DNA of 64,000 nt from positions 1 to 64,000 of IMG/VR virus record IMGVR_UViG_3300027763_000001; one strand, 5' to 3'. Origin of the DNA: a virus. The position numbers were made by a program, and so were the translations under genes. Each line of letters begins with the position of its first letter. Positions within the stretch are counted from its first letter, which is position 1. Shown here one piece after another: positions 6,894-23,006 of the stretch. The notes under the pieces were generated by a model. That model did not search any database. It saw only the letters and a list, made by a program, of their open reading frames with translations, and was not told the origin of the DNA.

Positions 6894-7451
6894 ATGCCTG
6901 ACAGTAATCATGCTCCCCTCAAAACTGCCACCGAAAAACCAACCATGAAACAGTACGTCAAGCCCCGACGCATCTATCTTGCATCTTCGTGGCGGAATCC
7001 TACTCAGCCCGCAGTATTAGCCGCTTTGCGTGATGCTGGACATGAAGTGTATGACTTCCGTAATCCTGCTCCAGGGTATAAAGGCTTTGCCTGGAGCGAC
7101 TGCGGCGGCATGGCTAACCAGGACGGGCCAGGCAGAGGAGCTAGAACAATCCCCTCCTACCTGGAGGCGATCCGTTCGACACGCGCAACCGAAGGCTTTG
7201 CATTTGACAAGGAAGCGCTGGACTGGTGCGACACTTGCGTGCTGGCGCTACCATGTGGCCGCAGTGCCCATCTTGAGTTAGGTTACGCAACTGGTCAAGG
7301 CAAGGACACCTACGTGCTATTGCACGAGCATCAATTCGAGCCTGAGTTAATGTACCTGCTTAATACAGGTATTTGCGCCAGCACGCAAGAACTTATCGAA
7401 GTTCTTGGCCCTCAACGCTGCTACGGACGACCAGCGCCCCAGGCTCAATAA
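6894..7451 (+). CDS. Nucleoside 2-deoxyribosyltransferase-like protein
   Basis: This 185-residue protein begins with the fold's diagnostic first strand RRIYLASSWRNP, then AALRDAGHEVYDFRNP. A later block, FAFDKEALDWCDTCVLALPCGRSAHLELGYATGQGKDTYVLL, carries the Asp and Ser-x-x-x-Glu-type residues that in this superfamily form the nucleoside site (HLELGYA holds the candidate Glu). Family knowledge: these enzymes exchange or hydrolyse the base of deoxynucleosides, and phage members are mostly uncharacterised. Possible starts are ATG 6894 (chosen) or ATG 6945, just ahead of the conserved core; neither has a clear ribosome-binding site. It lies next to the dCMP deaminase, fitting nucleotide metabolism. 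Confidence 0.65.
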   Translation: MPDSNHAPLKTATEKPTMKQYVKPRRIYLASSWRNPTQPAVLAALRDAGHEVYDFRNPAPGYKGFAWSDCGGMANQDGPGRGARTIPSYLEAIRSTRATEGFAFDKEALDWCDTCVLALPCGRSAHLELGYATGQGKDTYVLLHEHQFEPELMYLLNTGICASTQELIEVLGPQRCYGRPAPQAQ

Positions 7452-7468
7452 AGGGAGTCCTACCAATT

Positions 7469-7498
7469 ATGACCGCCACCACCTTCTTTGTTCTTTAA
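7469..7498 (+). CDS. Nine-codon mini-ORF ahead of the dCMP deaminase
   Basis: ATG 7469 follows GGGAG (7453-7457) and reads nine codons (MTATTFFVL) to TAA 7496-7498. The deaminase TTG start lies two bases beyond. The mini-ORF has the better initiation signal, so it may load ribosomes that re-initiate on the weak TTG start. Confidence 0.3.
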   Translation: MTATTFFVL

Positions 7499-7500
7499 CC

Positions 7501-8061
7501 TTGGCTGACACCTTTCGCTCCATCCGCTATCCCAAAATTCCCAAAAACTGGGATCAACGTTTCCTGTACCTGGCTGCTACCGTCGCCGCCTGGTCCAAGG
7601 ACCCCTCGACCAAAGTCGGCGCCGTAGCCGTGCGCCAGCGGCGGGTACTGGCCACCGGCTACAACGGCCTACCTACCGGCATGATCGACAGTGTGGAGCG
7701 CTTGCTCAACCGAGACGTTCGTCTCGCTTTAACAATTCACGCTGAGCTGAACTTGGTCACCTTCGCAGCCCGTCACGGCGTCTGCCTTGATGGATCTACC
7801 GTCTACACTTACCCTTTGCTGCCTTGCGGTAATTGCGCTACCGCTTTGATTCAGTCCGGTATAACCAAAGTAGTTGCCCCGGACTTCGTCATGCCGATGC
7901 GCTGGCAGGAATCCATCACCCAGGCCAAGCAAGCCTTCCTAGAGGCCGGCGTTGGCGTCGAGTTGCTGGCCATTGAAGGTCCCCTGCATGTAGCTGCTGC
8001 GTCAAATCCAGATCGCGATGACCACGAGGAAACCGAAGACGCGCACTTGCGGCTGGTGTAA
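7501..8061 (+). CDS. dCMP deaminase (ComEB/Dcd family)
   Basis: It deaminates dCMP to dUMP, feeding thymidylate synthesis by the ThyX encoded 1.7 kb downstream. The 186-residue product shows DPSTKVGAVAV and ATGYNGLP typical of the family. The zinc-site signatures are TIHAELNLV (His-Ala-Glu: ligand His plus catalytic Glu) and PCGNCATALI (two Cys ligands). TTG 7501 gives MADTFRSIRYPKIPKNWDQRFL, the normal length before the core; a longer frame back to 7405 overlaps the preceding gene and reads unnaturally. Translation is probably coupled to the mini-ORF just upstream. Confidence 0.9.
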   Translation: MADTFRSIRYPKIPKNWDQRFLYLAATVAAWSKDPSTKVGAVAVRQRRVLATGYNGLPTGMIDSVERLLNRDVRLALTIHAELNLVTFAARHGVCLDGSTVYTYPLLPCGNCATALIQSGITKVVAPDFVMPMRWQESITQAKQAFLEAGVGVELLAIEGPLHVAAASNPDRDDHEETEDAHLRLV

Positions 8062-8353
8062 TCCCACGCCAGCGCTTATGCTGCGCCCACTTGCTCAGCA
8101 GACCTTGCACAACTGTCCTCCGGGATCCCGCGTCAAGAATTCCCTTGACGGCCGTCTGGGCATGATCTACAGCTCGCCGGAGCGAGCGCGAGCTTCTCTT
8201 GCCTTGGTTCCGGTCATGGTAGAGGGCTCCACCCGCCGCGAGCTTTGGGCCACCCACACCACCAGACTGCTCCCTCGGACTGAGCAATTTGTCGCTTTGG
8301 GTGGCACGAAGAGCGCGCCTGCCGGCTACCCTCTGACGCCTCTGGACGGCTGA
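8018..8353 (+). CDS. Hypothetical protein, 111 aa
   Basis: ATG 8018 lies inside the end of the deaminase gene (44-base overlap), and its stop overlaps the next ATG (TGATG). The N-terminal part has CGWCNP. The centre looks like a compact beta domain (GSRVKNSLDGRLGMIYSSPERARASLALVPVMVEGSTRRELWATHTTRLLPR), similar in rhythm to small SH3-like barrels, but this is only an impression. The tight overlaps support that it is translated. Confidence 0.5.
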   Translation: MTTRKPKTRTCGWCNPTPALMLRPLAQQTLHNCPPGSRVKNSLDGRLGMIYSSPERARASLALVPVMVEGSTRRELWATHTTRLLPRTEQFVALGGTKSAPAGYPLTPLDG

Positions 8354-8970
8354 TGGCCCGCCAGCGCAGCGGTTGGTACCTGGGCGAAGGCTTTCACGCC
8401 GAAGTGGCAATGGGCAAGCCCTGCCTGTTCGCTCGCCACAGCCACGGTGCTCGGGACTACCGCAGTCAGCGCTACACGGACACTCAGGCCTGTGTTCAGT
8501 GCGTTGCAGAGCTGGTTCGGCCGACTCTGAACCTGGACGTCAACGCAGTTCTGCGCTCCTACCAGTTGCACTATCTGGAGTTCTGGGCCCTGGTTGACGT
8601 GCGCGGGGCGGATGATTGCTGGGAGCACCAGAACCGAGTCCTGGATTACGGCCGCAGCAGCTGGTCTCTAAGCGTGCGTCGCCCCACCTGGCTTGCTGGC
8701 GGGCAGACACGCATTGCTCCCTACCGGGTCGCGTCCTGGTTCTCCTGGGGGGACACGGGCGCGCTGGAGGTCAAGCCGGTTTGCGGTAACCGTGCCTGCT
8801 GTAATCCTTTGCATCTGCGAGTGGTGCACGTTCCCCACTTTCACCGGGCGGCCACGATCGATCGAGTCGATCTATGCCTTCAAGTTGAGCAGCACCAGAG
8901 CTACACCAGCAAGTTGTTGCAACGGAGCACAGGGCGGGTTACCGTAGAATCCAGCTCTGCCTCTCTGTGA
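8353..8970 (+). CDS. HNH-type (His-Me finger) endonuclease-like protein
   Basis: The 205-residue product carries a C-terminal block of the HNH/AP2-associated type found in phage homing endonucleases: YRVASWFSWGDTGALEV, then CGNRACCNPLHLRVV (about residues 149-163), where Cys pairs and NPLHL match the zinc-binding second half of the motif. The usual first His of HxCxN is replaced: the sequence before CGNRAC reads EVKPV. Catalytic competence is therefore uncertain. The N-terminal half is unrecognised. It starts at ATG 8353 in a TGATG overlap and ends just before the next gene. It could be a free-standing homing endonuclease or a DNA-modification nuclease. Confidence 0.6.
   Translation: MARQRSGWYLGEGFHAEVAMGKPCLFARHSHGARDYRSQRYTDTQACVQCVAELVRPTLNLDVNAVLRSYQLHYLEFWALVDVRGADDCWEHQNRVLDYGRSSWSLSVRRPTWLAGGQTRIAPYRVASWFSWGDTGALEVKPVCGNRACCNPLHLRVVHVPHFHRAATIDRVDLCLQVEQHQSYTSKLLQRSTGRVTVESSSASL
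8945..8950 (+). promoter_or_regulatory. Possible -10 element TAGAAT
   Basis: TAGAAT lies 23-28 bases ahead of ATG 8973, at the spacing seen for other putative phage -10 hexamers in this window. No convincing -35 hexamer was found, and the site lies within the end of the HNH gene. Confidence 0.25.
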
Positions 8971-8972
8971 CC

Positions 8973-9611
8973 ATGGGCTGGACCTCCGACGATTACGAAA
9001 GAAGCATCGGACTGAAGGGCGGGCAGGAGCTCCGCAATCCGGGATCGGACAACGCTCGGTTTCGGGCCGATCTCCAGAACTCCCAGTACCAGGCAACCGC
9101 CAGGCAGCTTGGAATCAAGAGCCTGGACAGCGCCAATGACCTGGCCAAGGTCATCAGCCATCTCAACAGCCAGAAGCAGTCCACATCTCCTGTGACCCCC
9201 AGTGGCGCCGGCGGCTCTCCTGCGGCCCAAGCCACTACCGCCACCAAGGACCGGGCTGAGGCTTCTTATCGCGAGTCTCTTCCTGCCACCACTCCAAAAC
9301 AGAACCCCTGGATTCCCCTCAAGTTCGGAGGCGGCACCGGGGACGAAGCCCATAATTCCCAGGCCCGCTCCAACAACGCCAACCTGGCCACCCAGGGGAT
9401 GCTGGACGCGGCCCGCGCCACCCAGGAGAGCACTACCAAGTCGGCCGATCGCTTCGACGCGATGGCCTTCAACTCATCCCAATGGATGGCGGATATTGAC
9501 AGCCGTAACATGAGCGCCCTGTCCCCGAACCTCGCCCTGCCGAAGAATCCGACTGAAGCCCTGCAGGGGTTCTATGACGACATTTCCAGCAAAATGAAGA
9601 GCTACCTGTAA
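8973..9611 (+). CDS. Hypothetical Gln/Asn/Ser-rich protein, 212 aa
   Basis: ATG 8973 is preferred over GTG 8967, which overlaps the previous stop. The product has a helical N-terminal section (WTSDDYERSIGL... QYQATARQLGIKSLDSANDLAKVISHLNSQ). A low-complexity Ala/Thr/Ser linker follows, then a second helical section (NLATQGMLDAARATQESTTKSADRFDAMAFNSSQWMADI) ending in FYDDISSKMKSYL. The composition resembles the minus-strand putative internal virion proteins at 54.8-58.2 kb. A minor virion component is possible; I recognise no family. Confidence 0.55.
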   Translation: MGWTSDDYERSIGLKGGQELRNPGSDNARFRADLQNSQYQATARQLGIKSLDSANDLAKVISHLNSQKQSTSPVTPSGAGGSPAAQATTATKDRAEASYRESLPATTPKQNPWIPLKFGGGTGDEAHNSQARSNNANLATQGMLDAARATQESTTKSADRFDAMAFNSSQWMADIDSRNMSALSPNLALPKNPTEALQGFYDDISSKMKSYL

Positions 9612-9617
9612 GCGGTC

Positions 9618-9646
9618 TTGCCTGGCTCAAAGTGTGTCTGTATAGT
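9618..9646 (+). promoter_or_regulatory. Sigma-70-type promoter for thyX
   Basis: TTGCCT (9618-9623) and TATAGT (9641-9646) are separated by exactly 17 bases. Transcription would begin near 9653, about 75 bases ahead of the chosen thyX start, leaving a leader that contains the tandem hairpin repeats. It lies in the first clear gap of the plus-strand gene run. Confidence 0.6.
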
Positions 9647-9676
9647 GCAGCGAGTCGCAACCTCCCCTTGTCCGAA

Positions 9677-9724
9677 CTGCAGGCGCCCGACCGCCTTTTA
9701 CTGCAGGCGCCCGACCGCCTTTTT
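9677..9724 (+). repeat. Tandem 24-bp repeat forming two hairpin plus T-tract units
   Basis: CTGCAGGCGCCCGACCGCCT followed by TTTT(A/T) occurs twice back to back (9677-9700, 9701-9724) with one mismatch at the last base. Each copy can form a five-base-pair stem (AGGCG/CGCCT) followed by a T-tract, like small intrinsic terminators. They lie between the thyX promoter and its likely GTG start. The frame stays open through them, so they could alternatively encode a repeated LQAPDRL(L/F) peptide. Confidence 0.55.
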
Positions 9725-9727
9725 CGC

Positions 9728-10432
9728 GTGGTCCGCCTGGATCACTCCACCAAGCCCCAGACCCTGGCTTGGCAAGCGATGCACCAGGACTACAGCGAAG
9801 AAGCCGTTGCCGATGAGCCGGTCCCGGGCAGCGAGCAGGAGGCCGGCGAAATTCTTGTCAAGCACTTGCTCAAGGGCGAGAAGGGTCACTACGGCCCCCT
9901 TGAGCACCCGTCGATCACCTTCAACGTCATCGGCTTCCCTCACGACCTGATGCAGCAGGCCCGCACTCATCGGGTCGGGGTTTCGTTCGATGTGCAATCC
10001 GGAAGGTACACATCTCAGAGAATTGTCGACGTGGTCACAGGCAAGCGTCCACTGGAGGAGGTGTTCTATCTGCGCCCGGTCGGGACCTACCACGACCGCT
10101 TCGGGAAGAAGTATGACTACAGCGAGCACGACCGGGAGTGTGACTTCGGGGCCTGCGTTGGACTGGCGACCACCTTTGCCGTCAAGATTGATCTCGGCAT
10201 GGCTGAAGAACACGCCCGGGGCCTGATTCCCTACTGCATCCGTCAGCATTTTGTTGTGAGCTTCAACGCTCGTTCTTTGATGCACTTTATGGATCTGAGG
10301 GCTAAGGCCGACGCCCAGCTGGAGATCCGCCAGCTGTCCGCGATGCTCTTTGCTGAGTTCAAGGATTGGGTTCCCCAGATCGCTGAGTATTACGAAACCA
10401 AACGCCTGGGCAGAGCCCTGCTGGCCCCGTGA
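9728..10432 (+). CDS. thyX: Flavin-dependent thymidylate synthase ThyX
   Basis: ThyX makes dTMP from dUMP using methylene-tetrahydrofolate, NADPH and FAD. The signature ARTHRVGVSFDVQSGRY (residues about 78-94) corresponds to the RHRxxSxNxxSxRY ThyX motif in its cyanophage-like form. GHYGPLEHPSITF (53-65) is the conserved upstream block, and the C-terminal CIRQHFVVSFNARSLMHFMDLR carries the N-x-R-x-L-x-H-F substrate segment. GTG 9728 was chosen because it gives a family-like N terminus (VRLDHSTKPQTLAWQ) and leaves the tandem repeats as a leader; TTG 9668 is the alternative. The 234-residue length fits the family. It works with the dCMP deaminase and reductase in the same window. Confidence 0.93.
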   Translation: MVRLDHSTKPQTLAWQAMHQDYSEEAVADEPVPGSEQEAGEILVKHLLKGEKGHYGPLEHPSITFNVIGFPHDLMQQARTHRVGVSFDVQSGRYTSQRIVDVVTGKRPLEEVFYLRPVGTYHDRFGKKYDYSEHDRECDFGACVGLATTFAVKIDLGMAEEHARGLIPYCIRQHFVVSFNARSLMHFMDLRAKADAQLEIRQLSAMLFAEFKDWVPQIAEYYETKRLGRALLAP

Positions 10433-12418: not shown

Positions 12419-15400
12419 ATGCACCCTTTCAGTGACCCCTTTCCCGCCGACGCCCGGTCTGCTTACCCTCTGTTCTATCGCTCCTACTCCCGCCGCCTGG
12501 ATGACGGCAGCCGTGAATCCTGGGAGCAGGTAGTTGAGCGCAATCTCAGCGCCCTGGTTGAGCTGGGTCGACTGAACCCTGAGCAAGAAGCCCTGCTGCG
12601 CCGGCACCAGCTGGACCTCACATCCCTGCCTTCGGGGCGCTGGCTCTGGGTTGGTGGCACCCCCTGGGCCGCCGACCAGCGCAACTTCTATGGCGCATAC
12701 AACTGCAGTTCGGTCCACGTCGACCAGCTCAGCGCTTTCGGGCTGCTGATGGACCTGGCGATGCAAGGAACCGGCACTGGTGCGGTGCTCACCCGGGCCA
12801 ATGTCGATCGGCTGCCGAAGGTTGTCAACCGGCTGGAGATCGACTACCGCGGCTCCCTGGGTTCAGCTGCCCCGGATGAGCGCAGTCCTCGCACGGCGGC
12901 AAGGCTTGTTGACTGCGAGCATCTCCTGATCAAGGTCGGCGATTCTCGCGATGGCTGGGTCACTTCCTACCAGAAGCTCATCCAGCTTGCCTGCGGCGTC
13001 GGGTTTTTCAGTACCTCTGGCGCTATCAAGATCACGATCGACCTGAGCTGGGTGCGCCCACCTGGCGAGCGGCTCAAGGGCTTCGGTGGGGTGGCCAACC
13101 CCTCGGCCCTCCCTGAGATGTATGCCCGGGTGACAGGGATCCTGAACCGCGCCATTGGCCGCCAGCTCACGCCCCTGGAGTGCTGCCTGATCATCGACGA
13201 GGCCGCCCGCTGCGTCGTGGCCGGCAACATCCGCCGCAGCGCCGGCATGCGTCAGTTCGACGAAGACGACCTTGAGGCCGCCGGCGCCAAGCGCAATCTC
13301 TGGGGCCAGGACGAGCAGGGCCACTGGGCGATCGATCCGGAGCGCGACGCATTGCGGATGGCCAATCACACCCGGCTCTTTCACCGCAAGCCCACCCGCG
13401 GCGAAGTGCTCGAAGCGGTGCGCAGCCAGCACGCTTGCGGCGAGGGGGCTATCCAGTTCACCCCTGAAGCCCTGGCCCGGGCCAATGCCGACATCCTCAG
13501 GCCCCAGTGGTTGAAGGAGAACTTTCTTGCAGTGATTGAAGAAGGCGGGCTAGAGGACGGCGCCAAAGGTCTTGCAATAATCCTGTTCGGCACGGGCGAT
13601 CTCGATGATCTCGATCCCGAGCAGCGCCGGGAGTTGAGCCACCGCATGAGCAGGTTTGGGCTCAACCCGTGCCTGACGGGAGACACCCGGATCTTGACTG
13701 TGCACCAGGGGCCGAAGTCCTTCCAAGAGCTGGCCGAGGCTGGCGAAGACGTTCTGGTGTGGTGCATCGACCTTGAGTCGAACGCGGCCTCGGTCCAGAT
13801 GATGCGAAACCCGCGAGTCACCGGCTACGACCAGCCAGTCCTGGAGATTGAGTTCGATTCCGGTCTCAAGGTGCGCGCCACCCCGGAGCACCACTTCTTC
13901 ACTCTGCAGCGCAACAAGGTGCAAGCCAAAGACCTCAAGCCCGGCCAGTCCGTCTCGGCTTTCGCGATTCATCAGCACCGCGACGGTCACCTGCGCATCA
14001 CTCGCAACGACAGGACCCGCGACGCCGTGCGGCAGCAGGTCTGCCACCGGATCATCGCCGAGCACTACGGCATCGCCGGCGAGGTGATCCACCGCCTGGA
14101 TCACGATCCCACCAGCAACCACCCCGACAACATGGCGGGTGTCACCTCCCTGGAGCACCAGCAGGAGCACTATCCCGATCGAGTCCGCGGCGGCTTCTAT
14201 CACGGCACTCCCGGGGGCCGGGCCAAGGAGATCGTCGCCAACCACAAGGTGGTGGCCGTGCGCGAGGCCGGCACTGCGACGGTCTACAACGGCACGGTCG
14301 ATGAGCACCACAACTATGTGGTGGTCGATCCCAGCGCCGTGGGCAAGTCCTTCGTCTCTGGCGTGCTGTCGGCCAACTGTGGTGAGATAATCGGCTCCGA
14401 CTTCCTGTGCAACCTCGCTGAAGTCCACCTCAACCGGCTCGACCCCAACGACTCCGGAGCGGTCGAGGAGGCCTTCCGCGCCGCTGCGCTCACGGTGTCT
14501 GTGCTGCTCCACCACCGCTTCCGCGACGAGCGGATGCAGGAAGCCCGGCTGCGAGACCCGATTGTCGGGGTGAGCTTCACTGGCCTGTTCGATTACTTTG
14601 TGCGCGCGCTGGGCGTCGACTGGCTGCGCTGGTGGGCCGAAGGCCGCCCGCCCCACGCCCAGGGGGCAGCGTTTTCCGCCTACGAGGTCAAAACCTTGCG
14701 TCGCTTCCGCGCCGTCGTCGAGGAGGAGGTGGCGACCTACTGCGAGGCCCACGGCCTGAAGGTCCCCAACCGCTGCACCACCGTGCAGCCCGCTGGCTGC
14801 CTGGGGCTCGACGCGGTGCGCGTCACCAGTCGGGGGCTGCTGCTGTTCGACGAAGCGAAACTGCTTTCGGCTTGGCATCAGGACGATCCCCTGCTTATTC
14901 GCGGCACGCTGCCTGTGGTCGACACTGTGCGCAACGAGCCCAGGCCCGCCCTGCGTCTCACCCTGGTCAGCGGCCGGCAGATCGCCTGCACCCCGGACCA
15001 CCGTTTCTGGGTAGAGAGCATGGGCTGGGTTCAAGCTCAAGCTCTTCGGATCGGCCACGAGCTTCAAGCTTCCCCAGGAGAACACTCCGGCCGACCTGTT
15101 GCTACCCAGCAGCTGGAGGAGTCTGAGATGACCCCGGCCAAAGCCCCAAGCTCCCTGACGCCAGGACTGGCCTACGTGGCCGGGGTCTCGCTGATCAAGA
15201 ACCCCGCCCGGGTCACCTGGCCGGCCCTGCGCAACATGGCTCCTGACTGCTTGCACTTCTCCTTTCCTCTCACGGAGGGGGCGGCCGCAGACCGCCTGAA
15301 CGAGTGGTTCGAGGACCTGTTTGAGACACCGCTCAAGCGGCGACTCTCGGGCCACACCATTCACCTGTTCAGCCGCGAGGCCCCCTTGCGCCGCTGGCTG

Positions 15401-16558
15401 GAGACCAACGGCCTCCTGATCGCCGATGCCCCTGAGACAGACCGGCTGCCTTTGTCCTTGCGCCAGTCCACTGCCAGTGCGATTCGTTCGTTCTTTGCGG
15501 GACTGATTGATGCGACGGCCAGCAAGATACGAAATCAGCCGCCTGTCATCAAGATCCAAAGCGAGCCCCTTGCCCGCCACCTCCAGCAGGTAGGGGAGGC
15601 CGTGGGCCTGGTCTTCCGCCTGCAGCGCCACCAGAACGGCAAAAAACCCTACTGGAAGCTGACCCTTTCGCGGTTCTGGAGCACTGCTCCAGCCCTGGAC
15701 TATTTGGCCACTTACAGCCTCCACTGCCAGGGACGGGATATGCGCAAGACGCATAACTGCTTCGGGCACCATTACTGGCAGGTGGCCGCTATCGAGCAGA
15801 TCGAAAATACCGCCACCGCAGACATCTGCTTGGACGCTGATGACGACGATGCCTGGTACTGGGCAGGTGCCATCAAGAGCCACAACAGTAAGTCATTGTT
15901 GACTAATGCCTCCCCGGGCTGGCACCCGCCCAAGGCCCCCTACTACATTCGCCGGATCACCTTCGCCAAGGACGACCCGATTGCTTTGGCCTGCCTGGCC
16001 TATGGCTACCCTGTCGTCCCATCTCAGTCCGACAAGGACGAGAGCGGCAGGTTGCTCAGCGACCCGCACGACCCGCGTTGCACCGAGTGGCTGGTGGAGA
16101 TTCCCACTGCCACGCCCTGGGCGGAGCTGGAGGGGGCGGCCGAGATCGACACCGGCAAATTCCCCGCCCTGGCTCAGTTTGACTTCTACATGAACGTGCA
16201 GAAGCACTACTCGGGGCACAACACCAGTGCCACTTTGGAGCTCGCTGAGACCGAGATTGAGCCACTCGCCACGGCCATCCACACGGCCATCGACACGGAC
16301 CAGGGATACATCTCGGCCGCTCTGCTGGCCCGCTTCGATGACAAGGAGACCTTCCCGCGGATGCCGTTTGAGCCGATCAGCAAGGAGCGCTACGAGGCGC
16401 TCTGCGCTGAAGTTGAGCAACGCCGCACCAACGACTGCTTTTTTGAGGCTCTGGCTCACTTCGACAGCAAAGCAGTCGGCGGAGCCCCCCAAGCGGAGGG
16501 CCCTGCCGGCTGCGATAGCGACAGGTGCCTGATGCCGGAGGCCGGGCCCGGAGTCTGA
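12419..16558 (+). CDS. nrdJ: Adenosylcobalamin-dependent (class II, monomeric) ribonucleotide reductase with two inteins
   Basis: The enzyme reduces ribonucleotides to deoxyribonucleotides through a cobalamin-generated thiyl radical. The 1,379-residue precursor contains two inteins (236 and 363 residues); the spliced protein would be about 780 residues, near the usual monomeric class II size. Visible reductase elements are YNCSSVHV (first redox Cys), the split NP-CGEI active-site motif (radical Cys and Glu), FLCNLAEVHLN eleven residues on (second redox Cys), the split TTVQPAG-SKSLLTNASPG loop, and the C-terminal CDSDRC pair that would re-reduce the active site. ATG 12419 was chosen: the frame is open further upstream, but that part reads as a shadow of the opposite ORF. 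It ends directly against a convergent minus-strand gene. With ThyX and dCMP deaminase it supplies dNTPs for replication. Confidence 0.92.
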   Translation: MHPFSDPFPADARSAYPLFYRSYSRRLDDGSRESWEQVVERNLSALVELGRLNPEQEALLRRHQLDLTSLPSGRWLWVGGTPWAADQRNFYGAYNCSSVHVDQLSAFGLLMDLAMQGTGTGAVLTRANVDRLPKVVNRLEIDYRGSLGSAAPDERSPRTAARLVDCEHLLIKVGDSRDGWVTSYQKLIQLACGVGFFSTSGAIKITIDLSWVRPPGERLKGFGGVANPSALPEMYARVTGILNRAIGRQLTPLECCLIIDEAARCVVAGNIRRSAGMRQFDEDDLEAAGAKRNLWGQDEQGHWAIDPERDALRMANHTRLFHRKPTRGEVLEAVRSQHACGEGAIQFTPEALARANADILRPQWLKENFLAVIEEGGLEDGAKGLAIILFGTGDLDDLDPEQRRELSHRMSRFGLNPCLTGDTRILTVHQGPKSFQELAEAGEDVLVWCIDLESNAASVQMMRNPRVTGYDQPVLEIEFDSGLKVRATPEHHFFTLQRNKVQAKDLKPGQSVSAFAIHQHRDGHLRITRNDRTRDAVRQQVCHRIIAEHYGIAGEVIHRLDHDPTSNHPDNMAGVTSLEHQQEHYPDRVRGGFYHGTPGGRAKEIVANHKVVAVREAGTATVYNGTVDEHHNYVVVDPSAVGKSFVSGVLSANCGEIIGSDFLCNLAEVHLNRLDPNDSGAVEEAFRAAALTVSVLLHHRFRDERMQEARLRDPIVGVSFTGLFDYFVRALGVDWLRWWAEGRPPHAQGAAFSAYEVKTLRRFRAVVEEEVATYCEAHGLKVPNRCTTVQPAGCLGLDAVRVTSRGLLLFDEAKLLSAWHQDDPLLIRGTLPVVDTVRNEPRPALRLTLVSGRQIACTPDHRFWVESMGWVQAQALRIGHELQASPGEHSGRPVATQQLEESEMTPAKAPSSLTPGLAYVAGVSLIKNPARVTWPALRNMAPDCLHFSFPLTEGAAADRLNEWFEDLFETPLKRRLSGHTIHLFSREAPLRRWLETNGLLIADAPETDRLPLSLRQSTASAIRSFFAGLIDATASKIRNQPPVIKIQSEPLARHLQQVGEAVGLVFRLQRHQNGKKPYWKLTLSRFWSTAPALDYLATYSLHCQGRDMRKTHNCFGHHYWQVAAIEQIENTATADICLDADDDDAWYWAGAIKSHNSKSLLTNASPGWHPPKAPYYIRRITFAKDDPIALACLAYGYPVVPSQSDKDESGRLLSDPHDPRCTEWLVEIPTATPWAELEGAAEIDTGKFPALAQFDFYMNVQKHYSGHNTSATLELAETEIEPLATAIHTAIDTDQGYISAALLARFDDKETFPRMPFEPISKERYEALCAEVEQRRTNDCFFEALAHFDSKAVGGAPQAEGPAGCDSDRCLMPEAGPGV
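13670..14377 (+). other. Intein 1 in nrdJ, with HNH homing endonuclease
   Basis: This in-frame insertion of 236 codons interrupts the radical-site motif, with junctions NP|CLTGDTRIL and VLSAN|CGEI. Splicing block A begins with Cys1 (CLTGDTRI). Block B is VRATPEHHFF with its TxxH. Block F lies near VVAVREAGTATVYNGTVDEHHNYVV, and block G is FVSGVLSAN before Cys+1. Between them sits an HNH core (EVIHRLDHDPTSNHPDN then HQQEH). All essential splicing residues are present, so self-splicing is expected. Confidence 0.9.
14798..15886 (+). other. Intein 2 in nrdJ, with degenerate LAGLIDADG-like domain
   Basis: A 363-codon insertion splits TTVQPAG|S. It starts CLGLDAVRVTSRG (Cys1), has block B ACTPDHRFW (TxxH), and ends with IENTATADICLDADDDDAWYWAGAIKSHN before Ser+1. 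The centre carries AYVAGVSLIKNPARV and SFFAGLIDATASK, spaced like two LAGLIDADG dodecapeptides. The catalytic acidic residue expected in the first copy is not obvious, so the homing endonuclease is probably inactive, whereas the splicing residues look intact. Confidence 0.87.
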
Positions 16559-19463: not shown

Positions 19464-22400
19464 TTGGCCTTCGTTCCGCTTCACAACCACAGCGACTACA
19501 GCATGCTGGACGGCGCCAGCCAGCTGCCGCAGATGGTGGAGCGGGCCGTGGAGCTGGGGATGCCAGCCCTGGCCCTCACCGATCACGGCGTGATGTACGG
19601 CGCCATTGAGCTGCTCAAGCTTTGCGGCAAGGCCGGCATCAAGCCGATTATCGGCAACGAGATGTATGTGATCAACGGCTCGATCGAGGATCCGCAGCCC
19701 AAGAAAGAGCGCCGCTACCACCTGGTGGTGCTGGCCAAAAACGCAGTCGGCTACCGCAACTTGGTGAAGCTCACCAGCATCAGCCACCTGCGCGGCATGC
19801 GGGGCCGGGGCATCTTCTCTCGCGCCTGCATCGACAAGAGGCTGCTGCGCCAGTACAGCGAAGGCCTGATCATCGCCACCGCCTGCCTTGGCGGTGAGAT
19901 TTCCCAAGCGATCCTCAAGGGGCGCCCCGACGTGGCCCGCTCCGTGGCGGCCTGGTACCAGGAGGTGTTTGCAGGCGACTTTTATCTGGAGATCCAGGAC
20001 CACGGCGGCACCGAAGACCGCATCGTGAACGTGGAGATGGCCCGCATCGGCGCTGAGCTGGGGATCGAGCTGATCGCCACCAATGATGCCCACTACCTTG
20101 GCGCGGGCGATGTGGAAGCCCACGACGCTTTGCTCTGCATCCTCACGGGCAAGTTGATCAGCGACGAGAAGCGCCTGCGCTACACCGGCACCGAGTACAT
20201 CAAGAGCGAAGCAGAGATGCTTACTCTTTTTGCTGACCACCTGGAACCGGAGACGGTGGCCGAAGCGGTGGCCAACAGCGCTCGGGTGGCTCAGAAGGTA
20301 GAGGATTACGGCATCTTGGGCCGCCCCCAGATGCCCCGCTTCCCGATCCCGGAGGGGCACACGACCGCGACCTACCTTGCCGAGCTGGCCGAAGCCGGGC
20401 TGCGGCAGCGCCTGGGCCTGGTGGCCGGCGAGCCCTTTGATCCGGCCTACGGCGAGCGGTTGGAGTTCGAGCTGCAGGTGATGGACCGGATGGGGTTCTC
20501 TGCCTACTTCCTGGTGGTGTGGGACTACATCCGCTTTGCCCGCGACAGCAATATCCCGGTGGGCCCGGGCCGGGGTTCGGCGGCCGGCTCGGTGGCGGCC
20601 TGGGCCCTGGGGATTACCAATATCGATCCGGTGGAGCACGGCCTGCTGTTCGAGCGTTTCTTGAATCCAGAACGCAAATCGATGCCTGACGTCGACACCG
20701 ACTTCTGTATCGAGCGCCGCGGCGAAGTGATCGACTACGTGACCCAGCGCTACGGCAAGGACAAGGTCGCCCAGATCATCACCTTCAACCGCATGGCCTC
20801 CAAGGCGGTGCTCAAGGATGTGGCCCGAGTCCTCGACATCCCCTACGGCGAAGCCGATCGACTGGCCAAGCTGATTCCCGTGGCCCGGGGCAAGCCCGCC
20901 AAGCTCAAGGAGATGATCGGCGCCGAATCTCCCAGTCCAGAGTTTCGCGAGAAATATCAAAGCGATCAGAATGTGAAGCACTGGGTGGACCTGGCGATAC
21001 GCCTCGAGGGGACCAACAAAACCTTCGGGGTCCATGCCGCCGGGGTGGTGATCGCCGCTGATCCTCTCGACGAGCTGGTGCCGCTGCAGCTCAATAACGA
21101 CGGCCAGGTGATCACCCAATACTTCATGGAGGACGTGGAGGCGATGGGGCTGCTGAAGATGGACTTCCTCGGCCTCAAGAACCTCACGATGATCCAGAAG
21201 ACCGTCGACCTGGTGGAGCGGAGGAGCGGTGTGCGGGTGGATCCCGATGCCCTGCCTGCCGGCGATGAGGACACCTACGCCTTGTTGGCCCGCGGCGATT
21301 TGGAGGGCATCTTCCAGTTGGAATCCAGCGGCATGCGTCAGATCGTGCGCGACCTCAAGCCTTCGTCCTTGGAGGACATCTCGTCGATCCTGGCCCTCTA
21401 CCGGCCCGGCCCGCTCGATGCCGGGCTGATTCCTAAGTTCATCAACCGCAAGCACGGCCGAGAGCAAGTCGATGTGCCTCACCCCAAGCTTGAGCCGATT
21501 CTGAGCCAGACCTACGGAATCATGGTCTACCAGGAGCAGATCATGAAGATCGCTCAAGACTTGGCCGGCTATTCGCTAGGTGAGGCTGACCTGCTGCGGC
21601 GAGCGATGGGCAAGAAGAAAAAAAGCGAGATGGAAGAGCACCAGAGCCGTTTCGTGGAAGGGGCCACTAAACGAGGCGTGGATGCCCAGGTGGCTGAGGA
21701 CCTGTTTGAGCAGATGGTGCTCTTCGCTGAGTATTGCTTCAACAAGAGCCATTCCACCGCCTACGGGGCTATCACCTACCAGACGGCCTATCTCAAGGCC
21801 CACTATCCGGTGGACTACATGGCCGCATTGCTCACGGTGAATGCAGGTGCTAGCGACAAGGTGCAGCGCTATATCTCCAACTGCAACGCGATGGACATCG
21901 AGGTCATGCCCCCCAGCGTGAACGCTTCCGGCGTCGACTTCACCCCTGTCGATGGACGGATCCTGTTCGGTCTTTCAGCGGTGCGCAACCTCGGCGAGGG
22001 GGCGATTTGCTCGCTGATTGACGTTCGTGATGGCGGCGGCCCGTTTCAGTTCCTGGCGGATCTCTGCGACCGCCTCAGCGGCTACCAGGTCAACCGCCGT
22101 GCCATTGAGTCGCTGATCCACTGCGGCGCCCTTGACGCGCTTGAGCCCGGGGCTAACAGGGCCCAGCTGATGGCGGACCTTGATCCAACCCTTGACTGGG
22201 CATCCTCTCGAGCCAGGGACCGGGCCAGCGGCCAGGGCAACCTTTTCGACCTGTTCGGGGGTTCCGTGCTTGGAAGCGCTTCGCCCGATTTGTTCACCGC
22301 CCCGAAGGCGGCCCCGGTGGCCGACTATCCGCCGCAGGAGAAGCTCAAGCTGGAGAAGGAACTCCTTGGCTTCTACATCTCTGACCACCCCTTGCGCCAG

Positions 22401-23006
22401 ATTGGCGCCCAAGCGAAGCTCCTGGGCCCGACCGACTTGAGCGGCCTGGAGGAGCTGGCCGACAAGGCCAAGGTAAGCGTGGTGGCGATAGTGACCGAGC
22501 TGCGCCAGGTGACCACCCGCAAGGGCGATCGCATGGCGGTGCTGCGGCTGGAGGATCTCACCGGCAGCTGCGAGGCGGTGGTGTTCCCTAAGTCGTTTGC
22601 CCGCTTGGCGGATCACTTGATACTGGACGCCCGCCTGCTGGTGTGGGCGGGAGCGGACCACCGCGACGAACGGGTGCAGCTGATTGTGGACGATTGTTGC
22701 AGCATTGATGATCTGCACCTGCTGGTGGTGGATCTGCCGGTGAACCAGGCCGGCGACACTGCCGTCCAGCACCGGCTGCGGGATTGTCTGCAGCGTCACA
22801 GGCCTGACGCAATGAAACGGGAGACGGCAGAAGCGCTGGTGCCAGTGGTGGCCCGGGTCCTGGACGGCGAGCGCGGTCGCTGCGTGCAGCTCGGGGCCCA
22901 GTTCTGCGTGGCGGACGGCGGATCGACCGCCCGGGCCCTATGCGCTGCTGGGCTTCAGGCCTCCCTCGTGCCCCTGCTTGATTCGCCCGAGGTCAGCAAG
23001 GGGTAG
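19464..23006 (+). CDS. dnaE: DNA polymerase III alpha subunit (DnaE), cyanobacterial type
   Basis: This 1,180-residue replicative polymerase has the PHP domain first ([31 protein letters not shown]), then the C-family palm with [14 protein letters not shown] (residues about 407-420, catalytic Asp pair) and [14 protein letters not shown] (third Asp). The finger and thumb segments include the [11 protein letters not shown] block. A C-terminal OB-like region ([37 protein letters not shown]) follows. The sequence reads as the picocyanobacterial protein throughout, implying capture from a host. The frame is continuous at [11 protein letters not shown] (Cys codon at 21735), where many cyanobacteria carry the split DnaE intein. 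The start is TTG 19464, giving the family-standard [13 protein letters not shown]. It would copy the phage genome with the primase-helicase, with clamp and loader borrowed from the host. Confidence 0.95.

Follow-up and report, generated by a model that had tools for sequence, protein, structure and literature searches.

The window analyzed here, the first 64,000 bases of a viral record of 94,461 bases, contains a ribonucleotide reductase (RNR) gene interrupted by two inteins, and we consider it very probable that this is the monomeric class II reductase (NrdJm) of a probable S-EIV1-like cyanophage carrying two class 1 inteins with independent origins, both of them mobile elements. Several inteins in one RNR have precedents, and the two-intein gene clearly exemplifies a class of selfish element already described; what is new is that the intein 1 site is empty in three contigs that resemble the same phage. 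The coordinates, reading frame and lengths proposed in a preliminary description of this DNA held up on computation, with a precursor of 1379 aa, an extein of 780 aa and inteins of 236 and 363 aa. The features are as follows:

12419-16558, plus strand: nrdJm, which encodes the 1379-aa precursor of a monomeric class II ribonucleotide reductase and its two inteins (TIGR02505; 1l1l)
12419-13669, plus strand: N-extein, ending in GLNP; 46-49% identity to intein-free NrdJ and 97-98% to L007-L009
13670-14377, plus strand: intein 1, 236 aa, between GLNP and CGEI (NP/C...SAN/CGEI, slashes marking junctions); Intein_splicing; site empty in L007, L008, L009 and L011
14042-14179, plus strand: residues 125-170 of intein 1, its worn HNH core; H142R, G145H, N150S, L155M and N164Q relative to relatives
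14378-14797, plus strand: middle extein, 140 aa; its first codon, TGT, encodes the radical cysteine and Cys+1 nucleophile of intein 1
14798-15886, plus strand: intein 2, 363 aa, between TTVQPAG and SKSLLT (PAG/C...SHN/SKS); L007-L011 have homologues at this site
15167-15202, plus strand: remnant of LAGLIDADG motif 1, LAYVAGVSLIKN; Lys134 replaces the usual acid in all homologues
15488-15523, plus strand: remnant of LAGLIDADG motif 2, SFFAGLIDATAS; Thr240 replaces the usual acid in all homologues
15887-16555, plus strand: C-extein, starting at Ser+1 (SKSLLT) and ending with the C-terminal CDSDRC cysteine pair, from the NrdJ alignment

Judged by its sequence, the product of ORF 12419-16558 is a monomeric class II (B12-dependent) RNR of the NrdJm/RTPR type. 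It scores 614.6 bits against TIGR02505 (adenosylcobalamin-dependent RTPR; cut-off 340) and matches PF21995, a B12-enzyme insertion domain (E 1.9e-9); its sole PDB relative by sequence is the L. leichmannii RTPR (1l1l, E 3e-23). In an extein alignment of the window and seven further NrdJs, of which six naturally lack inteins, the NPCGEI motif is invariant (it also occurs in 1l1l), as are C96, C418, C428, C766 and C771, which we take to be the five cysteines expected of an RTPR: an active-site pair (C96 and C428), the NPCGEI radical cysteine (C418) and a C-terminal pair (C766 and C771). The terminase is nearest to that of Synechococcus phage S-EIVl, at 46% identity, which points to a Synechococcus-like cyanobacterium as the probable host. 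Directly upstream of the reductase lie a dCMP deaminase (7405-8061) and ThyX (9632-10432), a nucleotide-metabolism cluster spanning 7405-10432. A 777-aa minus-strand open frame (13550-15883), antisense over both inteins, was judged a likely high-GC artefact.

The preliminary description had placed two inteins, with splicing residues intact, at two active-site motifs, and this is borne out. Intein 1 is recognized by profile (Pfam Intein_splicing, E 6.8e-15; TIGR01445 above cut-off) and has the sequence features of a class 1 intein, namely Cys1, a TPEH block B (T71 to H74), an HHNY block F, a terminal Asn (N236) and Cys+1. Its penultimate residue is Ala instead of His, as in all four close homologues; some DnaE inteins likewise end in Ala-Asn/Cys. 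An AlphaFold model of its splicing domain was usable and, in a fold search, had the Ssp (Synechocystis) DnaE intein as its top PDB match (E 4e-8). Intein 2 is identified instead by its residues, which are also those of a class 1 intein (C1, a TPDH block B from T65 to H68, H362-N363 and S+1), and by a codon-exact junction over which intein-free relatives read PAGTKS. Its match to Intein_splicing is weak (E 0.001; four of five homologues match), its AlphaFold prediction, built on five alignment rows, had a mean pLDDT of 40 and was not used, and its block F is atypical (DDAWYWAG), without the canonical His-Asn. Both insertions are in frame and flush with the conserved motifs, as had been claimed: with the inteins removed, the extein aligns without gaps to the other NrdJs at both junctions, and empty sites are codon-exact. 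Two intein profiles run over the whole 94 kb record found no inteins beyond these two.

From these residues we infer that both inteins splice. Each would excise itself after translation by an acyl shift at Cys1, transfer to the +1 nucleophile, Asn cyclization and ligation. For intein 1 this nucleophile would be the radical cysteine of the enzyme itself: with cysteine at positions 1 and +1 alike, the radical cysteine of the mature enzyme would be the +1 residue of splicing, and activity would thus need splicing of at least intein 1. Most likely, reductase activity depends on splicing of both inteins. The weak profile matches of intein 2 and its lack of a canonical block F could alternatively mean that one or both inteins are splicing-dead and the gene is on its way out, a fate of the kind proposed (as degeneration) for the two-intein nrdA of a Campylobacter phage (PMC3653736). 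We regard this as very unlikely, given 1379 codons without a stop or frameshift, conservation of all extein cysteines and extein dN/dS to relatives of 0.09 and 0.23.

The preliminary description had further assigned the inteins endonucleases of two types, at different stages of decay. The types stand, HNH in intein 1 and LAGLIDADG in intein 2, but the HNH core of intein 1 proved to be degraded itself. It scores 18.2 bits against HNH_3, below the Pfam cut-off of 24.8, whereas homologues in L017, L019 and L030 reach 40.4, 28.5 and 45.2 bits. Columns identical across these three homologues yet altered in the window include H142R, G145H, L155M and N164Q, of which H142 is presumably the general base of the HNH fold. 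Intein 1 thus appears to lack both the catalytic residues and the above-cut-off score of an active HNH endonuclease. Losses at conserved columns amount to 5/20 in the HNH core versus 7/83 in the splicing domain, a borderline difference (Fisher P 0.053), and the HNH part of the AlphaFold model (pLDDT <50) was too poor to position catalytic residues. The HNH of intein 1 looks inactive, having worn only in the window copy. The homologue at L030:4001-4711 has an intact-looking HNH (45 bits) at the same site of an NrdJ that is highly divergent (27% extein identity).

In intein 2, similarity to LAGLIDADG_3 falls under the cut-off (E 0.034), and an hhalign comparison finds the intein collinear with the L016 intein of LAGLIDADG type (E 0.0019, though at a probability of 14%). 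Neither motif has the acid found in active enzymes, Lys134 and Thr240 standing in its place in 5/5 homologues, down to 57% identity. As this loss is common to every known homologue, it is old, and the endonuclease looks inactive. The domain is still full length, with dN/dS of 0.11-0.43, near the value of the splicing part, indicating that this LAGLIDADG-derived domain is retained under purifying selection. An endonuclease without catalytic acids in all known homologues that is still conserved makes intein 2 a test case for the persistence of dead domains. The claim of different decay stages accordingly survives as a matter of timing (an old loss in all homologues of intein 2, a loss in this copy only for intein 1) and not as a difference in present state, since both look inactive.

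Comparison among related phages, which the preliminary description had suggested, separated the two inteins: intein 1 is missing from L007-L009 and L011, and intein 2 is kept. L007, L008 and L009, from three other metagenome records, share 94-97% DNA identity with the window over kilobases on both flanks and look like the same phage; the L008 contig also carries a 99% identical copy of the DnaE-like DNA polymerase III alpha subunit (1180 aa) found at 19464-23006. All three contain intein 2 and have an empty, codon-flush intein 1 site (NP/CGEI), and a search with the empty site as DNA pattern matched exactly these three contigs. The radical cysteine codon is TGC in these empty alleles and TGT in the window and in L017-L020. 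L011 (76% extein identity) likewise has intein 2 alone, with its intein 1 site empty, and the L010 fragment contains intein 2. A second intein 1-positive copy of the phage was not found in the viral contigs searched, a set that may leave out records near the window. Among the 80 top-ranking NrdJ relatives from viral contigs, a list biased toward uninterrupted genes, 76 lack inteins; the other four (L033, L034, L035 and L047) are the L007, L008, L009 and L011 contigs again. By these comparisons intein 1 is polymorphic within the phage. The result is a natural near-isogenic pair of alleles of one phage gene, the first having an intein at its radical cysteine and the second lacking it, so that the cost or the benefit that an intein brings to a viral RNR can be measured.

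This distribution bears on whether the inteins could be kept as post-translational switches, with redox- or infection-sensitive cysteine chemistry at the radical-cysteine junction gating dNTP synthesis. Cys1 and Cys+1 of intein 1 are indeed located at the catalytic cysteine, intein 2 holds a full-size but catalytically dead domain under purifying selection, and M. smegmatis DnaB, with two inteins of which one is blocked by oxidation, offers a precedent (PMC6195587). However, intein 1 is missing from this gene in near-identical phages, which argues against need, and so few of the best NrdJ relatives have an intein at all; purifying selection is expected of any intein obliged to fold and splice, and inteins cluster in RNRs without a demonstrated regulatory role. 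We therefore find a switch very improbable. The stronger form, in which neither intein is selfish any longer, the intein 2 domain serving folding or regulation and intein 1 conditioning exposure of the radical cysteine, is if anything slightly more doubtful. We prefer to see both inteins as mobile elements that would have settled where the DNA of the gene is most conserved: intein 2 old in the phage clade, its LAGLIDADG catalytic acids lost, and intein 1 having moved laterally among phage NrdJs, polymorphic here and with an HNH that lacks its probable catalytic His.

Homologues of intein 1 occur at the same site in L017/L018 (76% intein identity, 50% extein identity to the window), L019/L020 (74% and 51%) and L030 (54% and 27%). 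The extein tree makes sisters of the L019 carrier and the intein-free S-CBS2 (support 100/99), the window clade is separate, and intein-free NrdJs are placed between the intein 1 carriers; this patchiness favors lateral spread of intein 1 among phage NrdJs. We dropped the gap between intein and extein identity as sole proof of transfer, because the intein/extein divergence ratio is nearly constant across pairs and fourfold sites are near saturation; taken alone, a constant ratio would also fit a slowly evolving intein, vertical descent and many losses. The similar ratios and near-saturation also imply that the direct donor is not among the sampled homologues, and the GC3 of intein 1 (0.86), equal to the host gene level, implies that these are not recent donors. 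A donor search of named phages and bacterial and archaeal genomes returned only distant intein 1 homologues (about 25-35%), and no homologue was found in plasmids. Distant inteins (30-34% identity) do occupy the NP/C site in Saprospiraceae and Halobacteriales RNRs (L027 and L028 near 4001, L029 near 306), so this site is used across domains.

Three SNPs separating the window from both intein-less alleles lie ≤10 bp from the intein 1 junction (Poisson P about 0.001), a pattern suggestive of gene conversion around that point, although the SNPs do not give its direction. No long co-conversion tract was seen, as there is no local excess divergence beyond about 10 bp of the junction. Intein 1 could instead be old in the phage clade, the contigs without it having lost it by recombination with intein-free alleles after the HNH died. 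Several observations are compatible with such a loss: the worn HNH, a GC3 matching that of the host gene, the position of the window outside L007+L009 in the gene tree, and the derived state of two of the three junction SNPs in the intein-less alleles. Yet intein 1 is missing from the next outgroup, L011, as well, so that a single gain takes one step and a gain plus a loss takes two. Loss is in our estimate unlikely, if by no means negligible, and we infer that intein 1 was gained in the window lineage rather than lost elsewhere.

Precedents for parts of this arrangement exist, beginning with genes of several inteins. RIR1 of Trichodesmium erythraeum, in a similarly cyanobacterial setting, has four; it is a cellular gene that also contains group II introns, unlike the phage monomeric class II gene of the window with its two (PMC1635734). 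The nrdA of a Campylobacter phage has two putative inteins in one phage RNR, as here, but encodes a class I enzyme whose function has been doubted (PMC3653736). M. smegmatis DnaB similarly combines two inteins in one enzyme; there, however, the enzyme is a helicase, DnaBi1 is a class 3 intein and redox regulation was measured (PMC6195587). RNR inteins were reported in 8 of 18,717 marine viral RNRs (PMC12918982), and in cryoconite holes they vary within phage populations (PMC7468147).

Other systems resemble intein 1 more closely. The NrdJ-1 split intein also sits at the NPC radical-cysteine motif of an NrdJ, but it is split, its native exteins read NPC/SEI (one residue further, with Ser+1), and the solved fusion (PDB 8ubs, 151 aa) is too short for an endonuclease (PMC13123727). 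Thermus phage g20c likewise has a monomeric class II RNR (NrdJm) with a likely intein (PMC6459318), the N-terminal part of which matches intein 1 at 34% identity over 40% of intein 1; the exteins are about 28% identical. The dCTP deaminase of Aphanizomenon phage CL131 has an HNH_3 intein, again in a cyanophage nucleotide-metabolism gene, for which self-excision was demonstrated in E. coli; its host gene is different, and it is 27.5% identical to intein 1 (PMC6293099). Two further arrangements surfaced in related sequences. A 394-aa intein with well-matched LAGLIDADG motifs (E 1.7e-11) occupies a third site, GNVRR/SAGMR, in the related phage NrdJ of L016 (5790-6971). A 'hypothetical protein' of Microcoleus phage My-WqHQDG (L006:2237-2674) is an NrdJ whose NPC motif holds a mini-intein of roughly 145 aa, apparently inserted one residue later (NPC/CLVAG...NN/CEI), so that the mature motif would be NPCCEI.
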